Below are positions 19,297 to 45,599 of a stretch of DNA of 64,000 bases, piece by piece. The stretch is taken from contig NC_014002.1 of the NCBI RefSeq assembly GCF_000025865.1, positions 1,302,001 to 1,366,000 on the forward strand, read 5' to 3'. The stretch is from Methanohalophilus mahii DSM 5219. Its GTDB lineage: Archaea; Halobacteriota; Methanosarcinia; Methanosarcinales; Methanosarcinaceae. Numbering within the stretch: position 1 is the stretch's first letter; each line of letters begins with the position of its first letter. The position numbers and the translations under genes are program-made. Under the pieces are notes generated by a model that was not told the DNA's origin, searched no databases, and saw only the letters and a program-made list of their open reading frames with translations.

Positions 19297-20523
19297 ATGA
19301 CTCTAAAAAAAGTGAAAGTCTTGTTTGGGATTCTATCTATACTTATAATCACTTTACTATTGCCGATAGGAGCCAATTCAACTGAAAGTCTTGTTATGGC
19401 GGATTTAATCGGATTAAAGGAAGATTATGAAGCAAATGAGAACGATACACTATCAATTCCAATCATTATTCAAAATGTTTCCAATGGTCCAATCCAGACC
19501 ATTAAATGTGATATACAATACAATGAATCAGTTTTGTTCCTTGAATCTGTAGAAGTCGGTGACCTCACAAACGGATGGACTATTCTTACAGGGGATAATG
19601 TTCATTCTATAACTTTGACTACACCGGATAGTAGCATTTCCATAAGAAACGGATCTTCAGGAAATATATTTAATTTACACTTTAATGTGACTGGAAATGC
19701 AGGTGATACTACTGCAATTTATCCAGAAGACATTGATATGGCAAATACTGCAAATTTGCATGGAAGTGTACTATCTACAAACAAAACCGTTGATATCAAT
19801 AACAAAAAAACTACTGTTCCTTCAGAAGATGATTCTTCAGGGAATGGTGGAAGTGGTGGAGGAGGTGGTGGAGCCACAGGTGAAGAGTTTGAAAATATCG
19901 CCTCCAAGCATGCACAGGTAAGTAAGGTGGCTGCAGGTGAAGATGTAAGATATGAGTTCAGTGAAGATGATATTGATTTAATGACCATCCAGTTTACAAG
20001 CCTTTCCAATGAAGGTCAAACCAAAACATCAGTTGAAGTCCTCAAGGATACATCAGCGTTGGTGGATTCTTCTGCACCAGGAAAAGTCTATCAGAACCTG
20101 AATATCTGGGTTGGCAATGTCGCCTTTGATGAAGATGATATGGAGGATCCTGTAGTTGGATTCAGGGTAAGTAAAGAATGGATTTCTGATAATGATGTAG
20201 AACCATCTTCAATTGTCCTTTGCCGATATAATGATGGTGAATGGACCCAGCTTCCTACTGAAGTTATAGGTGAAGATAAGGATTATTTCACATATGAATC
20301 AGAAACCCCCGGATTTTCACCCTTTGCTATAACTGCAATCTCACAAAAAGAGGAATCTTCTGCAAATGCCACCTCGGGATTGAATGAATCATTAGAAGAA
20401 ATAATGAAGGAAAAAACTGATAATAAGACAGAGTCTAAATCAAATGAGACCCCTGGATTTGGTGTTTTGTTAACATGTGGGGTACTGACGATAATAGCTC
20501 TATTGACAAGAAAGAAGAATTAA
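19297..20523 (+). CDS. Cohesin-domain surface protein with PGF-CTERM anchor
   Basis: A 408-residue exported protein: signal peptide (FGILSILIITLLLPIGANS), cohesin domain (~30-160) closely related to that of the preceding protein, a Gly/Ser-rich linker (GNGGSGGGGGG), a PGF-pre-PGF-type domain (~200-350), a charged spacer and a C-terminal PGF-CTERM segment (ETPGFGVLLTCGVLTIIALL then RKKN). The tail is expected to be processed by an archaeosortase and lipid-anchored. The cohesin could bind the dockerin of the upstream gene product, displaying it on the surface. The two cohesin coding stretches share a nearly identical block (about 18485-18540 and 19474-19530), pointing to duplication or gene conversion. 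A decayed copy of this gene's 3' end lies at 30387-30538. Confidence 0.85.
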   Translation: MTLKKVKVLFGILSILIITLLLPIGANSTESLVMADLIGLKEDYEANENDTLSIPIIIQNVSNGPIQTIKCDIQYNESVLFLESVEVGDLTNGWTILTGDNVHSITLTTPDSSISIRNGSSGNIFNLHFNVTGNAGDTTAIYPEDIDMANTANLHGSVLSTNKTVDINNKKTTVPSEDDSSGNGGSGGGGGGATGEEFENIASKHAQVSKVAAGEDVRYEFSEDDIDLMTIQFTSLSNEGQTKTSVEVLKDTSALVDSSAPGKVYQNLNIWVGNVAFDEDDMEDPVVGFRVSKEWISDNDVEPSSIVLCRYNDGEWTQLPTEVIGEDKDYFTYESETPGFSPFAITAISQKEESSANATSGLNESLEEIMKEKTDNKTESKSNETPGFGVLLTCGVLTIIALLTRKKN

Positions 20524-20758: not shown

Positions 20759-21976
20759 TTACCTAATGGCAGAAACTCTCTGTTTCCATTCTTCCAATCT
20801 CTCCCTAACATGAGCATTCAAAGTAAACGGTTTCCCAGATTTAGCATTCTGTTTCATGTAGTGCAAAGTACCCTTAGAAAAACCCATTTTCTTCCACTCA
20901 ACATAAGAAATATCAAGAATCAACTGTCTGATTTCCATATTGTCCTGTCTTTCAATTTCATAGGCAGGAGACATGAAATCAACCATTTTGCGTTTGCCAA
21001 CAAGGTATTGAGCCAGTTCTCTTGTCTTCAGGAGCAATATAGCACTCCATGTATGTTGTTTATTCCTGTATTTGGCACGTTTATTCAGCCATTGATTAAC
21101 TTCCTCAGTAACCTTCCTGGCCCCTGTAGGCTTAAGCCTTAGCGCATAAGTTTCTGTCCGGATGAAATCCTGTTTATCCATTGCTCCTTTCTCAACCAGT
21201 GAGAATACGGCCAGATCAACAATAAACCTGAATGGTTCCTGCAAATCATAAGCAAGACTGTTTTTGCTCGAATTCATTTCATGCAAAAACCCAACATGTG
21301 GATCTAAGCCAACTGAGTTTATGGCCCTCAGACATTCAGCCTCAAGCAGAGCATATCCATAGTTGAGCATCACGTTGACCTTATCCCCTGCAGCAATCGG
21401 TCTTCTGTATTGGTCCAATCTGGCACAGAAATCATACTCTGCTGGTATGGCTTTTGCAAATTCATTCCAGTATTTCCAGGCAACTCCACCCTCAACTCCC
21501 ATAAGACCCCTTATCGTCCCTGTTTTGTTTAGTTTTTCAACATCATCAGAGAAATCAAACTCAATATCAGGATAGCGTTGTTTCAAAAAATCAAGCACTA
21601 CAATTGATTTATCAAACTTGGCCTCAATGAATTTTTTGGCAAGTTTTACTCTGGTTTGCTCATCTTCAAAAGCATGATACTGAGCAAACTTGGTCTTGAC
21701 ATTGGTACTTTCAGGAGGAAGCATGGTGGTCAACAATTTTCCATCCCAGTTGAGTATTGATATCTGGACATTATGCTTAATCAACCATCGGATTGCTTCA
21801 AGTGTAAGATTGCCACTTTTACCATACACAACAATATTGTCAATATCCATCCTTTTTGGAGAAAATACATATTCCTGAGGTTCTTCTGTGGTTGAGAATC
21901 TACCCTCTTTAATGTGTAGTTTAGCCCCACTTATCCGCATATCAATGCCATGACCATTGAGAAGTAGCAGTTTCAT
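20759..21976 (-). CDS. cas1: Cas1 casposase (integrase) with C-terminal HTH
   Basis: A 405-residue Cas1-family integrase. The N-terminal beta domain (KLLLLNGHG...VVYGKSGNLTLEAIRWLIKH) and alpha-helical domain carry the metal-binding residues: Glu162 in LMGVEGGVAWKYW, His232 in HVGFLHEMNS, and Asp244 with Glu247 in LAYDLQEPFRFIVD. After residue ~345 comes an HTH module (YVEWKKMGFSKGTLHYMK ... LNAHVRERLEEWKQ), the extension that marks casposases rather than CRISPR Cas1. It would insert the excised element into tRNA-Leu with a 14-bp duplication. It lies 16 nt behind the UAG-extended upstream gene, with TGGAGT just before its ATG, so the two are probably one transcript. Confidence 0.93.
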   Translation of the reverse strand: MKLLLLNGHGIDMRISGAKLHIKEGRFSTTEEPQEYVFSPKRMDIDNIVVYGKSGNLTLEAIRWLIKHNVQISILNWDGKLLTTMLPPESTNVKTKFAQYHAFEDEQTRVKLAKKFIEAKFDKSIVVLDFLKQRYPDIEFDFSDDVEKLNKTGTIRGLMGVEGGVAWKYWNEFAKAIPAEYDFCARLDQYRRPIAAGDKVNVMLNYGYALLEAECLRAINSVGLDPHVGFLHEMNSSKNSLAYDLQEPFRFIVDLAVFSLVEKGAMDKQDFIRTETYALRLKPTGARKVTEEVNQWLNKRAKYRNKQHTWSAILLLKTRELAQYLVGKRKMVDFMSPAYEIERQDNMEIRQLILDISYVEWKKMGFSKGTLHYMKQNAKSGKPFTLNAHVRERLEEWKQRVSAIR

Positions 21977-21992
21977 TTAGTGTACTCCATCA

Positions 21993-22859
21993 TTAATTGT
22001 CGATTCTGTACCTGATTTCCTTTATGATTTTTGCAGATTTTGGATTATTGTATTCATTTCGGATTTTTCTTTCTAGTTTATAGAGCTAATCTGTATTCTC
22101 TTCTATCAATATATTTTGACATGAATGCATATAATCGTCTTTTACATTTGACAAATCATCTAGGTTTTCGGCATCCCACTAAAGCTGATCTATTACCACA
22201 CTTTCTTTATAATTTCCTAGGAGATGAAGAATATTTCTTCTTAAAGATTCACTTTTATATTTCTGATGATAATCTTCTAATAATCTTTTCAACCATTCAA
22301 CTAGTCTAGTTTCTCTATCGGGTTCAATTCCATCTGCTAAAATACAATTAGAAACTATATTTACCAAAACACCTATCGAATTCTTATCCAATTCTTCAGT
22401 TTTATTCGATTCGTCAGTGAACGCATCTATTATCGCTTTTAATTCAACCTTATTTATGTTGTATTTGGATTTATACAAAGAAAGTTCACTAATAGCATCC
22501 TTTCTATCCTGAGAATCATTCGATTTTAAGAGTGAAGTAACTTCCTCAATATGCTTTTTTAAAACCGTGGTTTTTTTGAGTAAAAAATATGAAGCATTTT
22601 CAGCTGTTTCGTCTATACCGTATTTCTTGAAGTCTTCAAGCCCCTTGCCTTTTGAAATTTTTTTAGATTCTTTCAATGTAACTAGTGCTCTTTCAATCTT
22701 AGACTTACTGTAACCTTTAGCCTTGAAATGGTTTATCAATCGTGATCTTCTAAAGTACTCTTCCTTTGAGAGAAGATCGATTATTTCTGCTTCAATGTTT
22801 GCTTTCTTTTTAGTAGAGTTTGCTTTTTGGTTTAGAGTATTTTGCTTCATTTTCTGCAT
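21993..22859 (-). CDS. Casposon HTH-like protein with two in-frame UAG codons, upstream of cas1
   Basis: The first 226 codons encode a basic, Lys-rich N-terminus with a winged-helix-like segment (FRRSRLINHFKAKGYSKSKI) and a helical body (DAISELSLYKSKYNINKVEL). UAG follows at 22181-22179. Reading through gives WDAENLDDLSNVKDDYMHSC then QNILIEENTD, a second UAG, and LYKLERKIRNEYNNPKSAKI ending at TAA 21993. The 62 codons after the first UAG carry no TAA or TGA despite ~35% GC and look like real protein; the extended end lies 16 nt from cas1. With UAG as pyrrolysine the product is 288 residues. Without it, the gene ends at 22179 and leaves a 200-nt gap. Probable DNA-binding partner of Cas1; I do not recognise a named family. 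Confidence 0.65.
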
Positions 22860-23093
22860 TAAATGTTAGAATACATCCTCTGATAAACCTAACGGTGCAT
22901 AGTGGTTATTGGTGATTTTATTTGTAGAAAATACAGATGTCGAATAAATTTGGCTGCTCTCAGGCAGAAGTCCTCAGAACAGCCTTAATCAAACTAAAGG
23001 AGCGATAAGTACGCGGTTTTCCAGAAATACGAGAGTTATGAAGACTGGCTTGGTGCTGCAAAACCTCGCAAGTCCGAATATGCGAAAGGGATC

Positions 23094-23645
23094 ATGTGGC
23101 TACACGAGAAGTTCCCTGAATTAACATTGAAGGAATTGCGTGAGCTAAATGTGCAGGATTATAGCGTGGCTGAGACGCCCTGGAATGACCTGGAATCACA
23201 GGACAAGCGTGATCGTATCCTGGCCTTTCAGGTACTCAGAGCTATGCGCCAGGGAGAATCATTGACCTCGACAGCCAAAGAGCTGGGCATCAGTAAACAA
23301 CTTCCTGAAATGCATCTGGGGGAGGCGCTCTTCAAGGAAAACAAAAGATGGAGAGTTGCACCCACTGATTCCATTGAAGCAAAAATGACAGTTTACGAGA
23401 AGGACAGAGGCATTGCCACGATAGTCACTGCGAGTTCAGAAGACCGGTCTATGATTGGGAAATATTTTGCTGCGGTACAGAAAGCTCTGAAATCCGGAGA
23501 TCCTTCCGGTCTTGCACCGTTCGAGGATTTCACCATCATTGATGCTTCGGGTAATTCTCACAGACTGGAAACGGATCTCGAAACGCTATATGAACTCGAG
23601 TTTTCTATTGAAGAGCCTGAATTTTTTGAGATATATGCAAAATAA
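23094..23645 (+). CDS. Casposon HTH-domain protein, start uncertain
   Basis: A 183-residue protein with a central HTH-like stretch (QGESLTSTAKELGISKQLPE) and an acidic C-terminus. The coding frame clearly extends upstream of the first ATG (23094): from 23010 it reads YAVFQKYESYEDWLGAAKPR then KSEYAKGI, and AAAGGAG lies at 22995-23001. But no ATG, GTG or TTG exists between the stop at about 22995 and 23094. Either the true start codon was mutated (the frame-equivalent place is GATAAGTAC) or a rare start is used. It is the first of three closely spaced plus-strand genes with the HNH nuclease and PolB, so it is probably part of the replication or transposition module. Confidence 0.65.
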   Translation: MWLHEKFPELTLKELRELNVQDYSVAETPWNDLESQDKRDRILAFQVLRAMRQGESLTSTAKELGISKQLPEMHLGEALFKENKRWRVAPTDSIEAKMTVYEKDRGIATIVTASSEDRSMIGKYFAAVQKALKSGDPSGLAPFEDFTIIDASGNSHRLETDLETLYELEFSIEEPEFFEIYAK

Positions 23646-23666: not shown

Positions 23667-24032
23667 ATGGATAAAGAAACATATGAACGAATAACTAAGA
23701 AGATGGCGCGTGACGGGAATTTTTCTCTTTGCTGCTATGGCTGTGGAGAAGATGATCCGGCGGTAATCAAGACTTTTGAGTGGCATCATTTGGATGGCAG
23801 AGCAAACTCGGACTATATAATACCACTTTGCCATAACTGTCATGCCAAAATTACTGCCGAGCAGAATAAAATCAAACCCAAAGACAGGTCCAGTAAGGCA
23901 ACATTGCTAAAAAGAAAAGGCATGCAACTAATTTCACAGGGGTCTTTCTTAAAAGTGATGGGTGGAAAACAGGTAGATCTTGGTCATTGGTTAATTGAAT
24001 ACGATACACTGCATGGAGGAGGAAATGACTAA
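23667..24032 (+). CDS. HNH endonuclease
   Basis: A 121-residue HNH nuclease, typical of casposons. Zinc-binding cysteine pairs CYGC (23/26) and CHNC (55/58) flank the catalytic HH of FEWHHLDGRANSDYIIPLCH. The start is 21 nt after the upstream HTH gene, with AGGGG nearby. The last 8 nt overlap the polB start, and its own C-terminal codons (HGGGND) supply the GGAGGAGG ribosome site for PolB, so the two are coupled. The role in casposon biology (excision, replication or target nicking) is not known. Confidence 0.88.
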   Translation: MDKETYERITKKMARDGNFSLCCYGCGEDDPAVIKTFEWHHLDGRANSDYIIPLCHNCHAKITAEQNKIKPKDRSSKATLLKRKGMQLISQGSFLKVMGGKQVDLGHWLIEYDTLHGGGND

Positions 24033-26697
24033 AGTCGCATTGAGAGGGTTTACCTGGAAGTCAAATGAGTCTTCCAAAACCTTTCCTTATAGACTAGGAC
24101 CTCCTTTGATACATTCCCGAGTACTTGTTTTTGATACTGAAACGACTATCGATCAGTACCAGAACCTGAAGATAGGGTATTTCCGGATATACCAGCGTGG
24201 ATGTATTCAGCATGATGGTCTATTTTACAACCCTGCAATGCTTTCTGAAAGGGAATGTAAGCAAGTTTAGGAGTACGTATCGAAGCACTCCATTGAAGTA
24301 TATAGTCTCAAGGAATTCGTGGATAAAGTCTTCTACAGAGAAATATATGTGCTCAAGACACTCTGTGTCGGATTCAATCTGGGGTTTGACCTGAGCAGGT
24401 TGGCAACCTATTCAGGAAATTCCAGGAATCAGAACAATGGTGGATTCACACTTACATTATCAAAGAAACGTGACGACCCCACAATTATAGTGCGCAGGCT
24501 TAATGATTCCAATAATTTTAAGTTGGGTAGTACAAAAAATAATCAGGGGAAGGAACGTTTTGATGGACATTTTTTAGATGTACAGTGTTTGGGACAGGTA
24601 CTCCTCGAATCAAAACATTTGTCTCTGGCGAGGGCTGGAGAGATGCTCAATACAGAGGTACGGAAAAAAGAAGGTATAGAGCATGGGACTGTTACCCAGG
24701 ACTACATTGATTATCTGATCACCGATGTACGTGTCACCTATCAGGTGTATGAGAAATTAATGAAAGAATTGAGGGAGTACCAGATTACCATTCCCCCCAC
24801 CCGGATCTATAGTGCAGCATCAATTGGTAAACATGCTCTGCAACAGTTAGGAATTGAGCCATTCAGGAAACATAAATCCAATTTCCCGGCCGAGATCATA
24901 GGCAATATAATGACCTCATATTTTGGTGGCAGGTGTGAATGCAAGATCAGGAAAACACCAACCAAGGTTACAGTCCTCGATTTTACAAGTATGTACCCAA
25001 CTGTGACCATGGAGATGGGTTTGTGGGATTTCATAATAGCCGACCGTCTTGAGCATGAAGATGTAACTGAAGAAATTAAAACACTATTCGGGAAACTGAG
25101 TCTGACTTACCTGCAAAACACGGATAACTGGAAGGATTTTGTGGTCATGGTAAAGATTCGGCCTGAGGAAGACGTGTTACCAGTCAGGATGAATTATAAA
25201 GGAGATTACGGGATTTTCAATGTGGGTATCAACCATCTATCGATTGAGTCCGGGATGTGGTTTGCCCTGCCTGATGTGATCAGTTCATATCTACTGACCG
25301 GCAAAATACCTGAGATTATTCAGGCAGTGCGGTTCATTCCAAAAGGTACGCAGGATGAATTGAGGAAATCAAAGATACTTGGTATGACTATCGATCCTGC
25401 AAAAGATAACCTAGTACAATTACTGGTTGAAGAGAGGCAGAAAATAAAGGTAGAGTTAGCAGGAAGTGAGATGGATGATCCTGACTATATCCGTCTGAAA
25501 AGCAGGGCACAGGCCATCAAGATCCTTGTGAATTCATTGAGTTATGGGATATTCATTGAATTAAACCCGGAGGAATGGAATAGTTATTTTAGGGTCTACG
25601 GTCTTGACAATTTCAGTACCGAGAAAAACAGGTATGAGAAACCGGGCAAGTATTTCCATCCTTTACTTGGGTCCATGATTACAGCAGGGTCCAGACTTTT
25701 CCTGGCAATGGCCGAAACCAAACTCAAAGAACTTGGTGGTACACACGCCTATATGGATACGGATTCTATCTTTGTTCCGCCTGAATATGCTCAGGAGATT
25801 ATAGACTATTTCCAGCCATTGAATCCTTATGCTCTGGATATTCCATTATTGAAACCTGAAAAAGAGGATATGTGGTTCTATGGGATTTCTTCCAAGAGAT
25901 ATGCCCTCTACAATTATGACAATGGAAATATCAAGTTCATGGAGGGTGAAAGGTCCTACAAATTGCACGGTCTCGGGCATCTGAGTAATCCATTCCCGAA
26001 TTCGGTTGTGGATTGGCACAGCGAGATCTGGCTGGATATCCTCAAGTTGCATTACAACCAGATTTCAGTGGAGGATATTGAAGCTAAATACGGAAACCTG
26101 TATGCTATCTCCAAACTAACGGTGAGTACTTCGAATATACTGAAGCGTTTCAAAAATCTTAATGAGGAGAAACCGTGGGAAAAACAGATCAAACCATTCA
26201 ATTTTTTCACTGTTGGATTCCACATGCAGCAGGATAAAGGCAAACCTGTTAAACCATTATCTCCGTTCTCAATGGATTCACAGAAGGTAGTTCATGAACC
26301 CTTCATAGATTATGAAACCGGCGAGGAAAAGCAGGGGTTGGAGTATTTCAAGCCACTGAGCAAAATCATTCTGCAGTACATCGAGCATCCGGAAAGTAAA
26401 CTGGATGGTAATGAGGGGGTTCTGGAAAGGAAACACGTTCATTCAGACGGAGTTTTATGTATCGGTAAGGAAGCGAACAATATCGTTGATCAGCCATTGA
26501 ACGTGGAACCAGCACAGATATTTCTTGAAACGGCTGCTGTAGAGGAGGAAATTTTATCGATTCCTCAGACACAGGCTGAAAGCTGTGGAGTGGATCGAGG
26601 GAATTTCAAACGCATAAAGGATCGAATAAAGAAGGGGAAACTGAACCTGAATACGCCTGCAGTAAAACGACTCCTGGCCAGACGTGTTCTACGTTAA
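24025..26697 (+). CDS. polB: Casposon family B DNA polymerase with an in-frame UAG at codon 82
   Basis: An 890-residue DNA polymerase if UAG at 24268-24270 is read through. Exonuclease motifs: ExoI VFDTETT (D37, E39), ExoII FNLGFD (N118, D122), ExoIII YLITDVRVTY (D234). Polymerase motifs: A LDFTSMYPT (D319), B KILVNSLSYG (~499-508), C YMDTDS (D578, D580). All catalytic residues are present. The UAG lies between ExoI and ExoII, at ...RECKQV-UAG-EYVSKHSIEV..., in one continuous frame. Stopping there, or restarting at GTG 24319, would give a polymerase without ExoI. The start ATG 24025 has the ribosome site GGAGGAGG. It is expected to copy the casposon. Pyrrolysine at residue 82 is an inference; a nonsense mutation is the alternative. 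Confidence 0.8.
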
Positions 26698-26880: not shown

Positions 26881-27435
26881 ATGGAACAATTCAAAAACTT
26901 GGTTTGTTCAACTTGTAAACATCAATTCAAATCGAATATTCAGACGAAAAAACCCAGGTGTTCTGCCTGTGGCTCGTATAGTGTTGTTGAAATGGATGGT
27001 GACATTCCTGCAATTGACATTTTAGAGGAGTTGAAGAATGATATTATAACGGAAATGGAAGAGATTAATGACAGTATTGGAGAGGAATTACTATCAAGTC
27101 TATCAGAGAATCTTGATCAGTTGAAGGAAGCCATCATTAAGGATGGGCATCGCACAAGTGATACTGACAGGAAGGTACAAAATTACGAAATCGAAAATAT
27201 TGTCAAGCAGGTTTATGGTGAACTTGTAGCTGAGATTAAGGGTTTGCATGATGAATCTGTGAAAAGGTCAGACATGAAACTTGATTCAATTACAAACAGG
27301 ATAAGTGAACTTGAAGAGAAGAATGCTCTGCTGATTGCCAAGCAGGAAGAGGTTGTTGACGAAGTATCACGGAAACTGGATACATTGAATAGTAATATTG
27401 AGAAGATTGTAAGGGATGGGGGATTTACGCAATGA
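26881..27435 (+). CDS. Zinc-ribbon coiled-coil protein of the casposon
   Basis: A 184-residue protein. An N-terminal zinc ribbon has two Cys pairs (CSTC at 9-12, CSAC at 26-29). The rest is predicted long helix and coiled coil (ELEEKNALLIAKQEEVVDEV; RKLDTLNSNIEKIVR), acidic overall. The start ATG 26881 follows AGAGAGGTTG. The phased ATTCY array immediately upstream may be its operator, or the site it helps to recognise together with PolB. I do not recognise the family; a DNA-binding or replication-accessory role is inferred from the ribbon and position. Confidence 0.7.
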   Translation: MEQFKNLVCSTCKHQFKSNIQTKKPRCSACGSYSVVEMDGDIPAIDILEELKNDIITEMEEINDSIGEELLSSLSENLDQLKEAIIKDGHRTSDTDRKVQNYEIENIVKQVYGELVAEIKGLHDESVKRSDMKLDSITNRISELEEKNALLIAKQEEVVDEVSRKLDTLNSNIEKIVRDGGFTQ

Positions 27436-28005: not shown

Positions 28006-30264
28006 TTAAAAATTTTGATTATCTTTTTTATCGTAGTTAGCTAGATAGAAATCAATAGTCTGTTTGTTAGCCGTGTACAACTTATCATTTTCATTTTTTA
28101 TTTTTATCAATCTAGATATTATAGATTCTAGTTCCACGAAATCATTCAGATTTTGGTAATTTAATTTTTTAATTCTTTTGGATGTGTAATCTCCAAACGT
28201 ATAACTCATTGATTCAGTAATAAATTTGCTTAAGAACAAAACTAACTTTCCGTCATCCGCTAAGATATCATCAATAAATTGTTCCCATCTTTTCTCTTTG
28301 TCCCAGTCACGCCACCTATAAATTATATAGATAAATTCGTCAGAATCCAACAATTTATTTTTGCAACCAATAATTTTTTCCAAACACAGTTTCTGCAATT
28401 CCTCAACTTTGTCAGGCGCAATAAAGGTGTCTTTTGGGTCATCATCCCTATCTTCGTTAGGAGTTTGGAGTGATACTTCTTGAACGGGTCCATACAGCCC
28501 TTTAGACAGTGGAATAGTATTTTTTAGAATTTTATAAATTTCCATAGATTCTCCATTGCGTTCGAATATCTGATGGAGGATTCTCATCATGTCCATATCA
28601 GCTCCATAATCAAACATGCCAGCCTTTTCTTTTGGTAAGTCATCAGAGATGTTGAATAGTGCTAGAACAATATTTTGAACTTTCTCTTGTGGAATGTACT
28701 TTTCCTCAGATGTATAATCCTGCATTTTTTGTAATACTTTTCGTATTTTATTTTTCTCTATATATTCTCGAAGAATTGATTCAAATGCTTCAACTGAATT
28801 TGTTTTGGTCAAAATGTTTTCCATTTCATATTGGCTTATTTCTTCCTCGCCTCCACCAGGAATTAGTGAAAAATAGCTATCAAAATTAGATGTAGCACAC
28901 ACTCTAAGGTCTCTACTCCAAGAGGCTTGAAAATCAGAACTATGATTTGTATTAATCTGTGGGAATAATGTTTTTACAAGTTGTATAGTATGTTCTCTCA
29001 CATCTTTTGCTAAATCATAGTCCTGATTTTCGATTTTAGCAATCCTATCATTTATGTTAGAAGAGTTAAACATATCTGTTGAAGTGAAAAGAGAGTTTTG
29101 ACTTTTCATGAAGTTATAAAAATCAGGATCAAATACTCTTATAGCTTCTATTGCAGTGAAATCTATGGGATTTACTTCCATTATTTCATCATTGTACATT
29201 TGTGATATGTTAAATTTTAAACTACTCATAAACCTTTTAACATCTCTTATATTTTTAAAATAATATTTAAATCCAGAGTTGTAAACATTGGCCCAATATG
29301 AATCACCTTGATTATAGAATCTCTGTGCAGATTCAGGTAATGAACCAAGTACTTGATTTAATTCTTCAAAGAAATACTTTGAAGTAGTATTAGGCTTTGC
29401 AAAAGGAATATCGAAATCAACCTGTACTATTTTGTTTAAGTAGTCTTTACCCGATACTCCTGCTTGCACCTCTAAATTTTTTTCAATAATTTTTCGATCA
29501 AATGCTAAAAGATAAATAATATTTGGAAAATCTGCATTAATTCGAATTAATCTAAATATTTGCTTTATTTCAGATTGATTTAATCGATCAATATCATCAA
29601 TTACAATAATTAATTTTTTTTGTCTTTTTAGCAACTCGTTTTTGATTTCCGTTTTTACTTCTAATATTGACTTTTTATTATATGCATTTTTTTTATTTAA
29701 AATATCAGCTAATTTTGCTAAATAATTTTTAAATATTCCAGCAACTACAAGTACAGCACTTAAACCAAGTACTGAATATTTCACATACATATCAGCAATA
29801 TTAATCCAACCAGTTATTTCATTTGTAGAAATACCTACTAAACTTATACCTATTATTAGACTAAAAGCATATCCCGAAACTGTTTTTTCATCTGGTACCA
29901 GACTAAGCAAACTTGAATAATACGTGAGTTTCTCAGCAATCTTTTTGTCATTGCTTTCCCCTCTTATTTTAATTTCTTTTGCAACTTCATTGAAAAAATG
30001 CTCACTCAAGTTCTTTTGCTCTGAAAAATTCCAAGGATTAAATTCAATTACAGTAGGTATATCCTTTAAATTTTTATTCTTAATGTGCCTTAAAGCAAGT
30101 TTAATTGCAGAGGACTTACCAGACCCCCATTCTCCATGGACCGCAACAATAAGACTTTCTTTTTCCTTCCAACTTAAAAGAGATTCAGCTAAATGTTGTG
30201 AAAATCCTTTTCGGTTCAAAAAGTCCTCTTTTTCTGTTTCTATTGGTTTGTCAGGAATAAACAT
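28006..30264 (-). CDS. KAP-family P-loop NTPase (putative defence gene)
   Basis: A 752-residue KAP NTPase. Walker A is AVHGEWGSGKSSAIKLAL (~45-60). FNPWNFSEQKNLSEHFFNEV is the KAP signature. Two hydrophobic helices are inserted at ~135-180 (AFSLIIGISLVGIS; YSVLGLSAVLVVAGIF), so it is membrane-associated. Walker B is KLIIVIDDIDRLNQSEIKQI, followed by a sensor-like YLLAFDRKII. KAP proteins include the phage-exclusion protein PifA and many defence-island genes; that role here is inferred. I start at ATG 30264 (MFIPDKPIE); a GTG lies at 30279. The gene is very AT-rich, unlike the host genes, which suits recently acquired cargo. The C-terminal ~350 residues have no recognisable domain. Confidence 0.8.
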   Translation of the reverse strand: MFIPDKPIETEKEDFLNRKGFSQHLAESLLSWKEKESLIVAVHGEWGSGKSSAIKLALRHIKNKNLKDIPTVIEFNPWNFSEQKNLSEHFFNEVAKEIKIRGESNDKKIAEKLTYYSSLLSLVPDEKTVSGYAFSLIIGISLVGISTNEITGWINIADMYVKYSVLGLSAVLVVAGIFKNYLAKLADILNKKNAYNKKSILEVKTEIKNELLKRQKKLIIVIDDIDRLNQSEIKQIFRLIRINADFPNIIYLLAFDRKIIEKNLEVQAGVSGKDYLNKIVQVDFDIPFAKPNTTSKYFFEELNQVLGSLPESAQRFYNQGDSYWANVYNSGFKYYFKNIRDVKRFMSSLKFNISQMYNDEIMEVNPIDFTAIEAIRVFDPDFYNFMKSQNSLFTSTDMFNSSNINDRIAKIENQDYDLAKDVREHTIQLVKTLFPQINTNHSSDFQASWSRDLRVCATSNFDSYFSLIPGGGEEEISQYEMENILTKTNSVEAFESILREYIEKNKIRKVLQKMQDYTSEEKYIPQEKVQNIVLALFNISDDLPKEKAGMFDYGADMDMMRILHQIFERNGESMEIYKILKNTIPLSKGLYGPVQEVSLQTPNEDRDDDPKDTFIAPDKVEELQKLCLEKIIGCKNKLLDSDEFIYIIYRWRDWDKEKRWEQFIDDILADDGKLVLFLSKFITESMSYTFGDYTSKRIKKLNYQNLNDFVELESIISRLIKIKNENDKLYTANKQTIDFYLANYDKKDNQNF

Positions 30265-30386
30265 GGGTCCGACTCTCACTATTATATCGGAAAATCACAT
30301 TTCAAATATATTCTACAATACGCATGTTTATCTTTTATATTAAACGTATGCATTTTTATGTTTCTTTAGAAACCCTTTAATTTAGT

Positions 30387-30538
30387 AATGAAGGAAAAAA
30401 AACGATAATAATAAAGATTCTAAATCAAATGAAACGTCTGGATTTGGATCTTTGTTAACATCTGAGGTACTGATGATAGCAACTCTATTAACAAGAAGGA
30501 ATGAATGAGAAGATGAATCCTTCATTATTTGGTTTTTT
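30387..30538 (+). pseudogene. Decayed 3' fragment of the PGF-CTERM surface gene
   Basis: This stretch matches 20403-20560, the last ~120 coding bases plus the 3' flank of the cohesin/PGF-CTERM gene. The relic reads SKSNETSGFGSLLTSEVLMI then ATLLTRRNE against SKSNETPGFGVLLTCGVLTI then IALLTRKKN. Upstream of this the frame is broken by indels and tandem TAA. It shows that a second copy of the surface gene once lay near the right end of the element. Confidence 0.75.
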
Positions 30539-44932: not shown

Positions 44933-45520
44933 CTATAGGCGCTGTTTTGCCCCCATAACCCGCTGTATAAAAGTAATATGAGTCAGGATTGCAATAAGTA
45001 CAAGTGCCTGCAGGAGGAAACCTGAAAGTGCGCCGATGATAAGAATTATAATTCTTTCTGATCTTTCTGCCACCCCTATGTCAAGTTTGGATACACCTGC
45101 TGCTTCGGCACGTGCACGTGTGTAACTGACAAGATATGAGCCGATCATTGCGAAGACACACCAGAGCCACCCTTCTATAAAAAATCCAGTCCCTTGAATT
45201 GTATTGTTTACAAAACCATAAATCAAGCCTGTAAAAACAATAGCATCTGCATAACGATCACATACCGAATCAAGTACCCCTCCAAAAGCCGATGTTGTAC
45301 CACTGGCACGTGCAACAGCCCCGTCTAAAACGTCAAGTACACCCCCCAGAATTAAAAAAAGGGCACCCAATAAAAGATCGCCTTTTGCAAATTCAAAAGC
45401 TGCCAGAAAACTTACAATAAGCCCAAGATATGTGATGGTGTCGGGAGAAAAGGGGATTCTGGATGCAAATGGCAATACAGAATGACGTATGGAGTTTTTT
45501 AAATTACCAAGTATTTCCAT
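44933..45520 (-). CDS. CDP-alcohol phosphatidyltransferase (probable archaetidylinositol phosphate synthase type)
   Basis: A 195-residue membrane enzyme with about five helices. The CDP-alcohol phosphotransferase motif DG-x2-AR-x8-G-x3-D-x3-D is complete (LDVLDGAVARASG ... VLDSVCDRYAD). It transfers an alcohol phosphate to CDP-archaeol to make a polar lipid head group; in euryarchaea genes of this size and type are archaetidylinositol phosphate synthases, but the substrate is inferred. Its stop codon is TAG (44935-44933), the only one in the window that looks like a genuine terminator; reading through would add 19 residues. Confidence 0.85.
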   Translation of the reverse strand: MEILGNLKNSIRHSVLPFASRIPFSPDTITYLGLIVSFLAAFEFAKGDLLLGALFLILGGVLDVLDGAVARASGTTSAFGGVLDSVCDRYADAIVFTGLIYGFVNNTIQGTGFFIEGWLWCVFAMIGSYLVSYTRARAEAAGVSKLDIGVAERSERIIILIIGALSGFLLQALVLIAILTHITFIQRVMGAKQRL

Positions 45521-45599
45521 CCCTCTTCATAAATTGGTAGCATAAGCGTAGATATATTGGGATTTCACATATATAAAATTAAACACAAATAATGGGTAC

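Follow-up and report, generated by a model that had tools for sequence, protein, structure and literature searches.

Gene organization of casposon MetMah-C1

The window (the whole 64,000-nucleotide stretch of DNA of the halophilic methanogen Methanohalophilus mahii that was analyzed) contains a casposon in which cas1 and HTH1, both on the reverse strand, lie with HTH2 and an HNH nuclease gene upstream of polB, and genes for a small CxxC protein and a KAP NTPase lie downstream. A cas1-solo gene, a full-length B-family PolB, an HNH gene with two HTH genes, and a conserved gene order are all features of family 2 casposons, and the element is the published MetMah-C1, placed in family 2 with MetBur-C1 to C3 by Krupovic et al. 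in 2014 (PMC4046053). The KAP gene points to this identity, a KAP NTPase being named there as MetMah-C1 cargo.

Cas1, the casposase (20759 to 21976, reverse strand; 405 aa), is intact, with a full-length profile match (Pfam Cas_Cas1, 7e-68) and no in-frame stop in the casposon census described below. HTH1 (21993 to 22859, reverse strand) adjoins cas1 and spans 288 codons when read through two TAGs to a terminal TAA at 21993 to 21995; casposon HTH1 homology, by both tblastn and profile match, runs on past both. The first of these TAGs (22179 to 22181, reverse strand) falls where relatives have K or I and the second (22086 to 22088, reverse strand) where they have E or K; neither figures in an earlier note on this DNA, made from sequence alone. 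HTH2 (23022 to 23645, forward strand; tblastn and profile match) is damaged at its 5′ end, in that in-frame homology is seen from about 23022 onward, the first in-frame start being an ATG at 23094 (183 aa). Between 23000 and 23100, an ATA lies near the expected place of the ATG and the frame shifts near codon 8. The HNH nuclease gene (23667 to 24032, forward strand) was likewise recognized by tblastn and profile match. Beyond polB, an open reading frame (26881 to 27435, forward strand) for a small protein with two CxxC pairs stands where casposons encode a zinc-binding protein and has no Pfam match; it is followed by the gene for the KAP-family P-loop NTPase (28006 to 30279, reverse strand; Pfam KAP_NTPase, 3.2e-45).

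No terminal inverted repeats, gapped or ungapped, rose above shuffled controls; the 2014 description reports such repeats for all but MetBur-C1 to C3 (PMC4046053). Across the element from the gene at 19297 to 20523, window positions 30390 to 30525 resemble the 3′-terminal part of that gene (the SKSNETPGFG... tail), and by this resemblance the segment appears to be left over from a paralogous gene for a surface protein. The damage to HTH2 and the lack of detectable inverted repeats suggest that MetMah-C1 may be decaying, a matter separate from the meaning of its UAG codons. Viral-contig and phage collections yielded no relatives, and no second strain with the same element copy was present among the genus genomes examined, which contain only one other full-length PolB (62% identical and without a UAG).

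An in-frame UAG codon in the casposon DNA polymerase gene

The polB gene (24025 to 26697, forward strand; Pfam DNA_pol_B_2 and casposon PolB homology) starts with an ATG that overlaps the HNH stop codon (ATGA) and runs for 890 codons through one TAG to a terminal TAA. This TAG, a putative pyrrolysine codon at codon 82 (24268 to 24270, forward strand), is the sole internal stop in the frame, as the earlier note had it, and identity to casposon PolBs is 62 to 65% across the full length, through the TAG. We located each of the catalytic motifs that a read-through product had been said to contain: the exonuclease motifs ExoI (DTET, 37 to 40), ExoII (NLGFD, 118 to 122), and ExoIII (YLITD, 230 to 234), and the polymerase motifs A (DFTSMYPT, 319 to 326), B (KILVNSLSYG, 499 to 508), and C (YMDTDS, 576 to 581), which recur across 44 aligned homologues. 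The UAG does lie between ExoI and ExoII, but the description of these motifs as just before and just after it was loose, as it is 42 residues past the first and 36 ahead of the second. Nearly all other full-length casposon PolB copies have an open frame of about 880 to 910 codons with no interruption.

Column 82 is highly variable among the 43 homologues (97th percentile of column entropy), with E in 13 copies, K in 12, V in 4, S and L in 3 each, and also N, I, F, R, and Q; UAG is found in only 1 of 44 copies. The alignment with related casposon PolBs that the earlier note had proposed as a check thus went against a conserved UAG. As E and K are the commonest residues in relatives, the codon probably arose from GAG or AAG. 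Elsewhere, conserved columns are retained: MetMah PolB breaks 4 of the 192 columns that never vary among the 33 other copies in its group, compared with up to 5 in uninterrupted PolB copies and 11 in a frameshifted copy, and MetMah Cas1 breaks 1 of 125. Relaxed selection on MetMah PolB is therefore not seen, although a recent loss would escape this column test. An AlphaFold2 model of PolB built from five sequences had a mean pLDDT of 36.8 and was set aside, and a codon-usage scan of the flanks of every stop had low power, missing PolB itself.

If translation stopped at the UAG, it would leave merely an 81-residue fragment, and restarting downstream could give a second protein, a polymerase without ExoI and hence without proofreading. 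The candidate restarts are GTG at 24319 (792 residues) and ATG at 24643 (684 residues), and the sequence AAGGA does lie four bases 5′ of the GTG. However, AAGGA sits within codons for residues common to relatives in the same segment, no other intact PolB copy is split there, and the downstream product would retain ExoII and ExoIII, which are needless in a polymerase lacking ExoI. Such a split also leaves the two UAGs of HTH1 unexplained, and we regard the production of two proteins as very unlikely.

Host capacity to decode UAG and the scarcity of UAG as a terminator

An absence of pyl genes had been named as one of the findings that would count against pyrrolysine in PolB, but M. mahii has pylS adjoined by pylT, the gene for tRNA-Pyl with anticodon CUA, and pylB, pylC, and pylD (assigned by order, position, and sequence rather than from curated models) are next in the cluster; the proposal thus withstands this test. 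The M. mahii genome paper names PylS and proposes pyrrolysine at an amber codon in citrate synthase (PMC3017947). We found host genes with in-frame TAGs to include that for citrate synthase, with one internal TAG and full-length homology on both sides of it, together with an MFS transporter gene, mtmB (two of three genes), and mtbB. The third MtmB homologue, without a TAG where the other two carry one, is encoded at locus L062 (G000:C1:1403992-1405338, forward strand). In the MFS transporter gene (L046:11158-12372, reverse strand), a single Pfam MFS_1 match spans the TAG.

TAG is almost absent as a gene terminator in M. mahii, as would be the case if UAG were a general sense codon. In a 462-kb sample representing 23% of the genome, TAG terminates 7 of 349 coding frames, and three of these seven ends (in mtbB, the MFS gene, and casposon HTH1) are actually internal; the remaining four have the next stop after 0, 4, 19, and 39 codons. 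Among the latter type of ends, pylB (L036:6266-7447, reverse strand) finishes with a TAG followed by 39 open codons to a TAA, overlapping the pylC start, and readthrough there would lengthen PylB when pyrrolysine is plentiful. A membrane protein gene in the window (44933 to 45526, reverse strand; CDP-alcohol phosphatidyltransferase-like) has a TAG, 19 open codons, and then a TGA.

TAG ends are similarly rare in another Methanohalophilus genome (G041, 0 of 82), in G095, which we take to be Methanococcoides burtonii from its three casposons (1 of 122), and in G014, of the same genus as G095 (2 of 76), the genus labels of all compared genomes being inferred; the three TAG ends of G095 and G014 all have more than 100 open codons beyond them. 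They account for 12.9% and 15.4% of ends in two Methanolobus-like genomes, and for 12.2% and 0% (0 of 57) in two Methanosarcina-like genomes, so that the low-TAG split does not strictly follow genus. When pooled, Methanohalophilus and Methanococcoides have 10 TAG ends among 629, at least four of the 10 being internal, versus 31 of 289 in the four other genomes (p 3.5e-9). Because pylS was found in each of the compared genomes searched for it (G041, G095, G029, and G141), pyl genes alone do not explain the terminator difference. We also note an in-frame TAG within the Pfam VWA_2 match of a VWA-domain protein in G095 (L141:13616-15268, forward strand).

Substitutional in-frame stops in casposon genes are exclusively TAG

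We counted in-frame stops in Cas1, HTH1, HTH2, HNH, and PolB (about 78,650 codons) of 44 Methanosarcinaceae casposons with a full-length PolB, by matching profiles against six-frame translations; all stops were written as X there, so that no stop type was favored. This identified six substitutional TAGs, no TAA, and no TGA, and homology through each TAG continues without a change of frame. The six TAGs are divided between MetMah-C1 (one in polB and two in HTH1) and MetBur-C3 (one each in polB, HNH, and HTH1), the latter being locus L064 (G095:C1:586871-591696), with its PolB TAG at about codon 61; the neighboring copies MetBur-C1 and MetBur-C2 have none. Five TGAs in the census are nonsubstitutional, lying in a frameshifted stretch (L124) or where a shortened match terminates (L132). 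TGAs first scored within PolB in G065, G124, and G164 were rejected as internal on reanalysis, and those of the G019 PolB were rejected as substitutional, being part of a frameshifted stretch.

Under a model of one-base changes from codon to stop, 36 to 40% of stops are expected to be TAG, and the probability of six of six is 0.002 to 0.004. A single TAG in one gene is within chance, but taken jointly with the other genes the pattern exceeds it. The six TAGs are confined to two elements and so are only partly independent of each other, and the bias therefore provides moderate support.

These data bear on whether MetMah-C1 is simply a decaying element whose UAGs are nonsense mutations, with full-length PolB and HTH1 absent or too scarce to matter. 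An HTH2 gene with no start codon where one is expected and with a frameshift near codon 8, the lack of detectable terminal inverted repeats, and the frequent frameshifting or truncation of casposon PolBs in the family are all as expected of a pseudogene, and MetBur-C3 has been termed inactivated on account of its amber mutations (PMC4046053). However, decay should yield TAA and TGA in addition to TAG, PolB and Cas1 retain their conserved columns, and in a host that decodes UAG the step from amber codon to dead gene is weakened; overall, we consider this explanation unlikely.

The positions of the TAGs are also informative. Relatives have mostly Y or V at the MetBur-C3 PolB site (position 61), E, K, or Q at the MetBur HTH1 site, and W, E, or K at the MetBur HNH site, and since the TAGs are thus at nonconserved positions, a shared catalytic role for pyrrolysine is excluded. 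The RNA that follows each of the three TAGs of MetMah-C1 has no unusual degree of structure (z scores of −0.24, 0.50, and 1.43), and a search for a PYLIS-like structure found none; pyrrolysine decoding without a dedicated signal has been reviewed (PMC9499178). A regulatory role is conceivable, in which the pyrrolysine codon ties casposon replication to pyrrolysine supply and hence to growth on methylamines, and UAG decoding is indeed needed by two genes of MetMah-C1 and three of MetBur-C3. Nonetheless, no UAG site is common to the two elements, all other copies have none, and neither a conserved context nor a downstream structure is evident, making regulated readthrough highly improbable. A sequencing error at PolB codon 82 is a negligible concern: although the element is known from one genome among those examined, that genome is a single contig, the element contains two further TAGs, and a second species shows the pattern as well.

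Pyrrolysine as the likely reading of casposon UAG codons

We conclude that the UAG at PolB codon 82 is likely a sense codon, with pyrrolysine inserted widely at UAG in M. mahii. The pyl cluster, the rarity of TAG ends, the in-frame UAGs of host genes, and the TAG-only stops of the census all support pyrrolysine in PolB, so the part of the earlier note proposing a pyrrolysine-containing polymerase stands to the extent that full-length PolB very probably contains the residue. What lacks support is the idea that pyrrolysine is special to this polymerase: the column is variable, none of the other copies carries a UAG in it, and HTH1 contains two more. Our best reading is that UAG here would be a near-neutral pyrrolysine codon with neither catalytic nor regulatory roles, readthrough being presumed. 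We infer pyrrolysine decoding, its efficiency, and the activity of the enzyme from sequence.

The likely route is that tRNA-Pyl(CUA) is produced in M. mahii and loaded with pyrrolysine, and that the residue is inserted at UAG widely, the breadth of insertion being suggested by the near abandonment of UAG as a stop in the genome. The charged tRNA most likely outcompetes release factor at UAG, in keeping with reviewed cases of signal-free pyrrolysine decoding (PMC9499178), and sense codons one base away could then mutate to UAG at little cost wherever a long lysine-like side chain is tolerated. MetMah-C1, under such a code, would have gained the UAG of polB and both of those in HTH1, and the polB product would be an 890-residue polymerase with all of its motifs and with pyrrolysine at a tolerant position.

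We think it rather improbable that MetMah-C1 and MetBur-C3 are both still active as mobile elements and dependent on an archaeal UAG-sense code. If they were, the polymerase and HTH protein would be made only in pyrrolysine-decoding hosts, and the code would confine host range and might tie mobility to the pyrrolysine supply.

Relationship to known systems

MetBur-C3 resembles MetMah-C1 in having in-frame TAGs, located in polB, HNH, and HTH1. We count three TAG-containing genes where two with amber mutations are published, and propose sense codons where the published interpretation is inactivation (PMC4046053; reviewed in 2023, PMC9939771); that interpretation should be reconsidered. The UAGs of MetMah-C1 receive no mention in the main text of the original description (PMC4046053). 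More generally, casposons judged dead from amber codons may be fully coding where the host reads UAG as pyrrolysine, and standard-code gene finders split such genes. CRISPR adaptation is proposed to descend from casposons, and knowing which copies are alive is of consequence.

A 2025 paper in Science reportedly proposes a 'Pyl code', in which every TAG codon is read as pyrrolysine in certain archaea, and the terminator statistics of Methanohalophilus and Methanococcoides fit this description. If UAG has turned into a regular sense codon in these lineages, pyrrolysine is to be expected at sites with no need of it. The citrate synthase gene is a close parallel in the same genome, also having one internal TAG, but is a host housekeeping gene, whereas casposon polB is mobile.

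Pyrrolysine in casposon genes was not found in the literature examined, although its occurrence beyond the methyltransferases is already known, in Methanosarcina transposases and in Thg1 (PMC8211752; PMC3639795). Those genes resemble the casposon genes in having an in-frame UAG, at a site not known to require pyrrolysine, in a pyrrolysine-decoding archaeon, and the transposase genes, like those of casposons, belong to mobile elements. They differ in function, as the products of the casposon genes would be an HTH protein and a DNA polymerase of family B. In contrast to the methylamine methyltransferases, in which pyrrolysine is functional, the UAG at PolB position 82 is unconserved among homologues, and the casposon genes add a mobile-element DNA polymerase and a DNA-binding protein to the set of genes that probably contain dispensable pyrrolysine.
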